Source of the DNA: Deltaproteobacteria bacterium
GTDB lineage: Bacteria > Desulfobacterota > Desulfobaccia > Desulfobaccales > 0-14-0-80-60-11
NCBI GenBank assembly: GCA_030018495.1
Contig: JASEFS010000030.1
Location: 1-42,760 of the forward strand
Direction: 5' to 3'
Length of the DNA stretch: 42,760 nucleotides
The notes beneath the pieces are model-generated. The model was not told where the DNA came from. It was given only the letters and a program-made list of their open reading frames with translations, and made no database searches. This document shows positions 1-31,175 of the stretch, piece after piece; the first letter of the stretch is position 1; every line of letters starts with the position of its first letter. The translations under genes were made by a program, and so were the position numbers.

Positions 1-829
<829 letters not shown>

Positions 830-28081: not shown

Positions 28082-28684
28082 CTATTGTTCCAGATAATCC
28101 AGCAATCGCCGCCAGAGCTTGTCCCGGCCTTCATGCGTGAGGGCGGAAAACCAGATAACCTCCCCCGCGGCCACGCCGAATGACTGCAAGTCCGCCGCTA
28201 GCCGGCGGACCGCTTGGGCCCGCTCCCCCATCTTCAGCTTGTCCGCCTTGGTAAGCACCGGGATCACGGCCCGGCCTTTGGCGGTTAAAACTTTCCAGAG
28301 AAACAACTCCTCCTCTCCCGGCCGGCGGCGGCCGTCCTGGAGGAACACCACCCCCCGCAAGTTCTCCCTTTGTTCCAGATAGTCCATGAGCAGGCGGCCC
28401 CAGCCGGCCTGCATCTCCCGGGAGACCCGGGCATAGCCGAAACCCGGCAAGTCCACGAAATGCCACCGTTGATTGATCAAGTAAAAATTCAGACCCCGGG
28501 TGCAACCGGGCTTGGCGCTCACCCGCACCAGTTTCCGCCGGCCCAGGAGGGCATTGATAAGAGAGGATTTCCCTACATTGGAGCGCCCCAGGAAGGCGAT
28601 TTCGGGCAGAGCGCTCCGGGGCAACTGCTCGATGCGGTGCACGCTGAGCTCAAATTCGGCGGTCTTGATTTTGGGAATGGCCAT
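28082..28684 (-). CDS. engB: Ribosome biogenesis GTPase EngB (YsxC/YihA)
   Basis: 200 aa, normal length. G1 GRSNVGKSSLINALL near residue 32, G3 DLPGFGYARV, G4 TKADK and G5 FSALT are all present. Essential GTPase for 50S subunit maturation. Monocistronic, divergent from plsC with 82 nt between the start codons. No strong ribosome binding site seen. Confidence 0.94.
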   Translation of the reverse strand: MAIPKIKTAEFELSVHRIEQLPRSALPEIAFLGRSNVGKSSLINALLGRRKLVRVSAKPGCTRGLNFYLINQRWHFVDLPGFGYARVSREMQAGWGRLLMDYLEQRENLRGVVFLQDGRRRPGEEELFLWKVLTAKGRAVIPVLTKADKLKMGERAQAVRRLAADLQSFGVAAGEVIWFSALTHEGRDKLWRRLLDYLEQ

Positions 28685-28766
28685 ACTTTACATATATCAA
28701 AGATATCTCCCACTTACCTAACCATTCGGGTTGACGGGCCATTTTTTTCCAGGTAAATGATAGCGT

Positions 28767-29504
28767 ATGGCCGAGGAACATGAAGGGCTATGGATAGCCT
28801 GGGGCTTGTGGTTTCATTTCTGGCTGGGGCTCATAACCATCAGTTTGGGGACAATGGCGCTGCTCGTCAGCCTCTTTGACCCCCTCGGTCTTAAGGTGCA
28901 ACGCCTGGCAAAGTGGTGGGGCAGGTCACTGCTCTTTTTTTCCGGCGTCAAGGTGGAGGTCCGCGGCCTTGAGCACCTCAAACCCGGCGAAACCTACGTC
29001 TTTGCCGCCAACCACCGCAGTCAGTTCGATATCTTCGTGCTCCTGTCAATCCTGCCCGGAAACTTTCTGTTCGTCGCCAAAAAATCCCTGTTTCAGATTC
29101 CCATTTTTGGACAGGCCTTGACCCGCACAGGTTCCGTCCCTATTGACCGCAGCAACCGCCAGGAGGCCATCAAGAGTCTCAATCTGGCCGTGGCCAAAGT
29201 TAAACAAGGGTTTTCCATGATCGTCTTTCCTGAAGGCACCCGCGCCAACTCCAGGGAGCTTATCCCTTTTAAAAAAGGGGTTTTTGTCATGGCTATGAAA
29301 GCCGGGCAGCCGGTGGTGCCCGTGGCCATCAACGGCACCATGGCCATCCAGCCCCGGGGCGCGCTGCGCCTGCATCCCGGGCCTATCCAGGTGGTGCTTG
29401 CCCCCCCTGTAGACCCCTTGCGATTCCCGACCAAGGAAGCTCTCATGGCCGCGGTCCGCCGGGAGATCGCCGAGCGCTTTGATCCCGATTATCCCCGCCG
29501 CTGA
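28767..29504 (+). CDS. plsC: 1-acyl-sn-glycerol-3-phosphate acyltransferase PlsC
   Basis: 245 aa. N-terminal hydrophobic helix (about 8-38) and LPLAT domain with catalytic NHRSQFD (HX4D) near residue 78 and FPEGTR near 155. Makes phosphatidic acid, the step after PlsY. Stop at 29502-29504 overlaps the AAGGAGG ribosome binding site of the RNase J gene, so the two are probably translationally coupled. Confidence 0.93.
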   Translation: MAEEHEGLWIAWGLWFHFWLGLITISLGTMALLVSLFDPLGLKVQRLAKWWGRSLLFFSGVKVEVRGLEHLKPGETYVFAANHRSQFDIFVLLSILPGNFLFVAKKSLFQIPIFGQALTRTGSVPIDRSNRQEAIKSLNLAVAKVKQGFSMIVFPEGTRANSRELIPFKKGVFVMAMKAGQPVVPVAINGTMAIQPRGALRLHPGPIQVVLAPPVDPLRFPTKEALMAAVRREIAERFDPDYPRR

Positions 29505-29516
29505 AGGAGGCATCTC

Positions 29517-31175
29517 ACGGAAAACCGGGTTGATCTGACCTTTCTGGGAGGCCTGGGAGAGATCGGCCTCAACCTCATGACCTTGGAAACCAGCGACTAC
29601 CTGATGGTGGTGGACGCGGGCCTCATGTTTCCGGAAGACCACATGCTGGGGATCGACATCGTCATCCCCGATTTTGCCTATCTCCGGGAACGGCGGGATA
29701 AGATAGGCGCTGTGGTCCTCACCCACGGCCATGAAGACCACATAGGCGCCCTGCCCTTTTTGCTCCGGGAATTTTCCGTGCCGGTCTACGGCACCCCCCT
29801 GACTTTGGCCCTGGTCCGGGAAAAGCTCCGGGAACACCGGCTGAACGGCAGCGTGGACCTCATGGAAACCAGGCCGCGGGCCCCATTTGAGCTGGGGCCC
29901 TTCCAGGTCGAATTTATCAGCGTGTCCCACTCCATCGTGGACGGCGTGGGTCTGGCGATCAAGACCCCCCAGGGGATTATCCTCCACTCCGGCGACTTCA
30001 AAATCGACCAAACCCCGGTGATCGGGGCTGCCACGGACCTCAATCGCTTTGCGCATTACGGCGAACACGGGGTGCTGGCCCTGCTTTCCGATTCCACCAA
30101 TGCCGAGCGCCCGGGCTTCACCATGTCGGAGCGGCAAATCGGCCACACCCTGGAGGAATTGATCCGGGAGGCTCAGGGCCGGGTCATCGTCGCGGTGTTT
30201 GCCTCCCACATCGCCCGCATCCAGCAAATCGTCAACCTGGCCCAGAAATTCGACCGCAAGGTGCTTTTCAGCGGCAAGTCCATGGTGGTCAACACCCGGC
30301 TGGCCAGAGAATTGGGGCTCCTTGAGGTGCCCGCTGAGATGGAAATCAGGGTGAATGATTTGGAGCGCCTGCCCCCCAACCAGACCATCATCATCACCAC
30401 CGGCAGCCAGGGCGAGCCTTTGAGCGCTTTAGCCCGCATAGCTCTGGAGTCCCACAAGCAAATCCATATCCGCCAAGGCGATCTGGTCATCCTGTCGTCC
30501 AAGTTCATCCCCGGCAATGAGCGGGCCATCACCACGGTGATCAACAATCTTTACCGCCTGGGCGCGGAAGTGATTTACGAAGAGGTAGCCGATATCCACG
30601 TGTCGGGCCACGCCTGCCAGGAAGAGCTCAAACTTTTGCTGAACCTGGCCCGGCCTCGGTATTTTATACCAATTCACGGCGAAACCCGTCATTTGGTCAA
30701 GCATGCCCACTTGGCCCGGGCCCTAGGCATTAATGAGGACCGCCTCCTTCTGGCCAAAAACGGCGATCAGGTGCGGTTTGACGACAACGGCGGCAGGATT
30801 GCCGGGCAAGTGGAGGTGGGCCGGGTTTTTGTCGACGGCAAGGGAGTGGGGGACGTCTCCTTCATCGTACTGCGGGACCGCCGGGCCCTGGCCAGCGACG
30901 GCCTGGTCATCGCCACGGTGGCCGTAGACGCCACGGCCAGAAAAATGGTCACCGAACCCGACCTCATCACCCGAGGGTTCATCCTGGAGGAGGAGCATGA
31001 ACCCCTCCTGGCCGAGGCGCGTCATGTCTTTACGGCCATTGTGGCCCGCGCCCTTAACGACCCTACCCAGGATTGGCTGGAGATTCAGGCGGAAGTGGGC
31101 AAGGCCTTGCGCAAACTGTTCTTTAAGGCTTTGGAGCGCCGTCCTATGATTCTCCCGTTGATATTGTCGCTTTAG
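29517..31175 (+). CDS. rnj: Ribonuclease J, apparent ACG start
   Basis: 552 aa from the proposed start, normal for the family. Metallo-beta-lactamase fold with THGHEDHIG (His70, His72, Asp74, His75), beta-CASP domain and C-terminal domain; a 5'-3' exonuclease/endonuclease in RNA decay. The first in-frame ATG (29577) would cut off the conserved first strand VDLTFLGGLGEIGLN. In frame from the plsC stop to 29577 there is no ATG, GTG or TTG. AAGGAGG (29504-29510) is followed 6 nt later by ACG at 29517, giving TENRVDLTFLGG. ACG initiation, or an ATG-to-ACG sequence error, is the simplest reading. Confidence 0.9.
   Translation, partial: TENRVDLTFLGGLGEIGLNLMTLETSDYLMVVDAGLMFPEDHMLGIDIVIPDFAYLRERRDKIGAVVLTHGHEDHIGALPFLLREFSVPVYGTPLTLALVREKLREHRLNGSVDLMETRPRAPFELGPFQVEFISVSHSIVDGVGLAIKTPQGIILHSGDFKIDQTPVIGAATDLNRFAHYGEHGVLALLSDSTNAERPGFTMSERQIGHTLEELIREAQGRVIVAVFASHIARIQQIVNLAQKFDRKVLFSGKSMVVNTRLARELGLLEVPAEMEIRVNDLERLPPNQTIIITTGSQGEPLSALARIALESHKQIHIRQGDLVILSSKFIPGNERAITTVINNLYRLGAEVIYEEVADIHVSGHACQEELKLLLNLARPRYFIPIHGETRHLVKHAHLARALGINEDRLLLAKNGDQVRFDDNGGRIAGQVEVGRVFVDGKGVGDVSFIVLRDRRALASDGLVIATVAVDATARKMVTEPDLITRGFILEEEHEPLLAEARHVFTAIVARALNDPTQDWLEIQAEVGKALRKLFFKALERRPMILPLILSL

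Follow-up and report, generated by a model that had tools for sequence, protein, structure and literature searches.

The window, i.e., the whole stretch of 42,760 nucleotides that was analyzed, comes from the genome of an uncultured Desulfobaccaceae bacterium and carries a plsC-like gene followed by rnj, the gene for RNase J (Table 1). The product of rnj, counted from an ACG codon, matched the RNase J profile of the MBL/beta-CASP proteins (TIGR00649) with 615 bits against a cut-off of 400, over residues 6-549 of 552, and scored 652 bits with NF047419, the exception model for RNase J1 RnjA, below its threshold of 820; the protein is a member of the RNase J family, to which NF047419 does not give the RnjA label. 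The HxHxDH metal motif and the beta-CASP motifs were present (H70, H72, E73, D74, H75, H361 and H387, invariant among 26 RNase J sequences), and the protein is full length, with all catalytic motifs and 77-78% identity to its nearest complete relatives. Besides RNase J, genes for RNase Y and for two proteins of the RNase E/G type are present in this genome. A partial 16S rRNA gene lies at the contig end, on the minus strand (window 7-821); the 16S 3' end, with the anti-Shine-Dalgarno sequence, was not among the partial 16S matches found.

Table 1. Features at the plsC/rnj junction, in window coordinates (SD, Shine-Dalgarno sequence; L002, locus of the genus-mate).
Feature	Position	Strand	Basis
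plsC-like gene, 1-acyl-glycerol-3-phosphate acyltransferase	28767..29504	+	TIGR00530 match; TGA 29502-29504 in the rnj frame
CTG where L002 has GTG (GTGA overlap), put out of the rnj frame by a 1-nt indel	29501..29503	+	L002 alignment, frame list
SD AAGGAGG, first A common to the plsC TGA stop	29504..29510	+	duplex -12.1 kcal/mol; identical in L002
6-nt spacer CATCTC (L002: 5 nt, AGTCT)	29511..29516	+	sequence comparison
Proposed rnj ACG start codon	29517..29519	+	sequence, SD, sister species L002
rnj, RNase J, 552 aa from ACG	29517..31175	+	TIGR00649 match; PDB RNase J1 3zq4, 6k6s
Codons of first beta strands (residues 5-11, 13-15), including invariant G11, G12, G14, E15	29529..29561	+	
ATG, residue 21, first canonical in-frame codon, rejected as main start	29577..29579	+	

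In the window rnj shares the frame of plsC and is open from 29505 to its stop codon at 31173-31175. The preliminary description of this DNA held that the frame lacks ATG, GTG and TTG codons from the plsC stop up to the ATG at 29577, that AAGGAGG ends 6 nt before an in-frame ACG and that the ORF from this ACG encodes 552 amino acids; the coordinates proved right, the sequence agreed and recomputation returned the same length. The assembled sequence at this site is CATCTCACG. Near-cognate codons in frame before 29577 are the ACG itself, CTG at 29535, 29544 and 29553, and ATC at 29562, while only ACG and GAA lie at a usable distance from the SD and, of the two, only ACG is a single mismatch away from ATG. 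The other frames offered nothing useful: frame +1 has a TTG at 29479 and closes at 29536-29538, and frame +2 has the CTG at 29501 alone and closes at 29531-29533. No match to a promoter of rnj's own was found in 28600-29700, and RNA structure near the rnj start was not unusually stable (z = +0.87 and +0.78).

The family was sampled with 22 Desulfobaccaceae genomes, two of them in the window's genus (g1), and the window rnj was the only one of the sample without any canonical in-frame start. The sole genus-mate (G001, locus L002; proteins 83% identical across 174 residues) reads TGAAGGAGG-AGTCT-ACGGAAAAC where the window reads TGAAGGAGG-CATCTC-ACGGAAAAC: alignment with a close relative, a check named in the preliminary description, returned an identical SD and ACG, and the spacer differs in its letters and by one base. 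The retention of TGAAGGAGG and ACGGAAAAC around a differing spacer is what would be expected if an SD and a start codon flank a spacer that is free to vary. The indel brings a GTG overlapping the plsC stop into the rnj frame in L002 only, where the plsC stop is in turn not in frame with rnj, so that strictly ACG is the only choice in the window, and the favoured one in L002. This GTG has no SD (duplex energy +0.4 kcal/mol, vs. -12.1 kcal/mol for the ACG in both genomes), and since the SD lies downstream of it, the latter would serve something further on; ACG and SD are kept in a genome that also offers an in-frame GTG. The two loci have diverged only moderately at synonymous sites (43 of the 147 codons whose residue is conserved) and the genus is represented by two genomes, which makes the conservation of a motif as short as the SD statistically weak.

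The best-supported reading, as the preliminary description had proposed, is that rnj of the window starts at the ACG at 29517, to which we assign a probability of roughly 0.7; it draws on the stability of the SD duplex, the ACG in a second species and the six invariant residues that a start at 29577 would lose. A sequencing error by which the C at 29518 is really a T (ATG) had been named as the main alternative; an error of assembly or base calling could also have inserted one spacer base that hides an upstream start. Such an error would be easier to accept in an assembly of 63 contigs, probably metagenomic, from a genus of two genomes, and in L002, one spacer base shorter, GTG indeed falls in frame; it is nonetheless unlikely, because L002 independently has C at the homologous base. 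Moreover, the two genomes match in their plsC end and SD, and the removal of one base in the window exposes a CTG, which is not canonical, so that two errors would be needed to yield an upstream canonical start.

Slightly less probable again is some other non-canonical event, namely initiation at CTG 29501 followed by a frameshift, initiation at CTG 29535, or readthrough of the TGA that ends plsC. In the window this TGA shares the rnj frame, the genome, with its selenocysteine-type hdrA genes, very likely uses TGA for selenocysteine, and as a near-cognate start CTG usually performs better than ACG. However, CTG 29501 is out of the rnj frame and its own frame closes at 29531-29533, whereas CTG 29535 lies 24 nt from the SD and its use would cost part of the first strand, and no unusually stable hairpin follows the plsC TGA (z = +0.87). 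A PlsC-RNase J readthrough fusion was rejected, the shared frame not being conserved in L002.

Improbable, too, is a scenario in which the functional start throughout the genus is the GTG that overlaps the stop codon of plsC in L002, and in which the window strain lost this codon and carries a decaying or barely expressed rnj. The GTG is in frame in L002, and RNase Y and the two RNase E/G-type proteins could compensate for RNase J; on the other hand, the window RNase J retains the length, identity and catalytic motifs given above, and the L002 GTG has its SD behind it rather than in front.

The start of the protein itself bears on the internal ATG. G11, G12, G14, E15, G17 and N19 were invariant in an alignment of 26 RNase J sequences spanning several phyla, strands were predicted at residues 5-11 and 13-15 in an AlphaFold model built on the 26-sequence alignment (mean pLDDT 83), and the solved RNase J1 chains 3zq4 and 6k6s aligned from residues 3-8 onward. 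Over residues 1-20 the window and L002 share 16 of 20 codons, with 3 synonymous changes and 1 nonsynonymous change, and this mostly synonymous divergence fits a translated stretch. Production of an RNase J shorter by 20 residues from ATG 29577, although this is the first in-frame canonical start, is therefore very improbable, as it would skip a stretch under coding constraint and delete the six invariant residues and both strands, a loss of part of the beta-lactamase fold that had been foreseen and is borne out here.

AAGGAGG was not enriched in the window (10 found vs. 8.9 expected, about 1.2e-4 per position and strand), so that the chance of finding one at start spacing is of the order of 1e-3. 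Genome-wide, 29 copies of AAGGAGG-N5-7-ACG were counted, compared with 58 of the reversed control pattern; among these 29 the rnj site alone precedes a long frame (>150 aa) without a canonical in-frame start upstream. A general use of ACG as a start in this genome was rejected on these counts, as no second convincing case was found among the 29. In a survey sample of 843 kb, made of 40 stretches of 20 kb and the window, rnj gave the clearest sense-strand coding signal upstream of a first canonical start, two selenocysteine hdrA genes aside. These two HdrA-like genes carry an in-frame TGA, a known selenocysteine position, between TNDCAM and IISPKLVEVGRH (L152, 9498-9500, plus strand; L168, minus strand); the genome thus very likely uses selenocysteine, and such genes would be annotated truncated. 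For infC in the same genome the apparent start is an ATA preceded by AGGAGG (L138, about 1495-1497; G000:C30, near 109905), as expected for this gene, which provides a positive control for near-cognate starts within the genome.

The history of the site was approached through 16 plsC/rnj junction loci of the family (L006-L015, L017, L019-L023). In 16 genomes plsC ends at -19 to the FLGG motif; in 15 of these the rnj start is an ATG lying within plsC, 39-45 nt before FLGG, with an rnj/plsC overlap of 23-29 nt and the SD nearly always absent. The plsC codon carrying the AT of this ATG varies (Tyr, His, Asp), yet it always ends in T, a third letter used by just 20% of such codons within these rnj genes (P of about 3e-10, treating the genomes as independent, which they are not fully); the constant T argues that the ATG within plsC is the usual and probably ancestral rnj start, and that the ACG of the window was formerly an internal Thr codon. 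Indeed, the codon homologous to it is ACG (Thr) in L006, L008, L010 and L012-L014; the ACG at 29517 does not, on this comparison, point to a mutated ATG, and it may be merely an inherited Thr codon. In g1 the ATG within plsC is lost, plsC is shortened (in g1 it ends in PDYPRR, as in the window, or PDYPHQ, vs. a longer PDYPYG end in the family) and the distance to the ACG is changed by one base in L002 and by two in the window. In g8, a neighbouring genus, L005 has an ATG start exactly at the ACG codon (CTAATGGATAAC) and L004 an ATG one codon later; a protein beginning at this codon therefore exists in the family. The tree placed the window and L002 together (90/86) and g8 in a separate clade with the backbone unresolved, and the order of the start-site events is consequently inferred.

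At another junction (L010/L033; G014, isolate DeMMO6_13) the family-conserved ATG reads ACG, 42 nt upstream of FLGG, owing to a silent TAT to TAC change in plsC. An ATG remains 18 nt further upstream, the ACG at -24 has a strong SD, and the locus is a possible second case of an ACG start.

The sequence of events that we propose begins with an rnj that started at an ATG inside the 3' end of plsC, the present ACG being then an internal Thr codon. In g1 the shortening of plsC and the altered spacing would have changed the frame and destroyed the overlapping start, after which a strong SD would have formed at the new stop codon of plsC and brought the former Thr codon into use as the start. In the window the plsC stop overlaps a near-perfect SD (TGAAGGAGG), the A of TGA being the first A of AAGGAGG; ribosomes terminating on plsC, or 30S subunits bound to the SD, could bring the ACG, six bases further on, into the P site, where the initiator tRNA would read it as a near-cognate start (fMet). 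Coupled re-initiation is the most likely route, with the strong SD and the coupling compensating for the poor codon; ACG is reportedly a very weak start in E. coli. Initiation at the ACG, its coupling, its efficiency and its sensitivity to IF3 are predictions from the DNA sequence. RNase Y and two RNase E/G-type proteins in the genome make a low level of RNase J plausible, and it may be speculated that the weak start was selected for such a level, perhaps under the control of IF3 as in sigR (PMC5472188). Autoregulation through a low-efficiency start, which the preliminary description thought conceivable, would likewise be hypothetical. The broader proposal, that the whole genus has a natural ACG start, a Thr codon turned by the new SD into the sole start of rnj and kept as ACG, although a single transition would make it ATG, since its weak, IF3-sensitive initiation sets the selected level, is in our view tentative and rather doubtful.

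If confirmed, natural initiation at ACG in a core gene of RNA decay would extend the range of bacterial starts beyond first- and third-position mismatches, and would offer a concrete, testable case of how a start site moves when overlapping genes separate, with the internal ACG (g6, g7), the ACG start (g1) and the ATG start at the same codon (g8) as stages of the relocation. Gene finders accept ATG, GTG and TTG (rarely CTG, ATT, ATC and ATA), so that genes like rnj would be annotated truncated. No documented natural bacterial ACG start was found in our literature search. Near-cognate starts are already a known kind of start, to which the ACG of rnj would belong.

Among known systems, infC (IF3), with its ATT, ATC or ATA starts, likewise keeps a near-cognate start in a well-conserved gene, but its mismatch is at the third position and it autoregulates through IF3, whereas that of rnj would be at the second position and belongs to no known regulatory loop. 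C-to-U editing of start codons is not known in bacteria. In plant organelles the DNA also shows ACG at the start position, which C-to-U editing of the RNA converts to AUG (mentioned in PMC9845219). Streptomyces sigR, whose GTC start is subject to repression by IF3 (PMC5472188), resembles rnj in having an extremely rare non-canonical start; that start is conserved in a genus, as the ACG is in the two genomes of g1. The sigR start was nonetheless proved by mutagenesis and Western blots, while that of rnj, an ACG in an RNase gene downstream of plsC, is predicted from sequence. In the frameshifted lambda cI gene, rescued by non-natural start codons (PMC6397469), the normal start is likewise lost through a change of frame, and initiation passes to a sub-optimal codon close to the ribosome-binding site; that case, however, was a laboratory event on a plasmid with the codon ACA, whereas rnj is a natural gene on a chromosome, and its matched SD is retained in two species.
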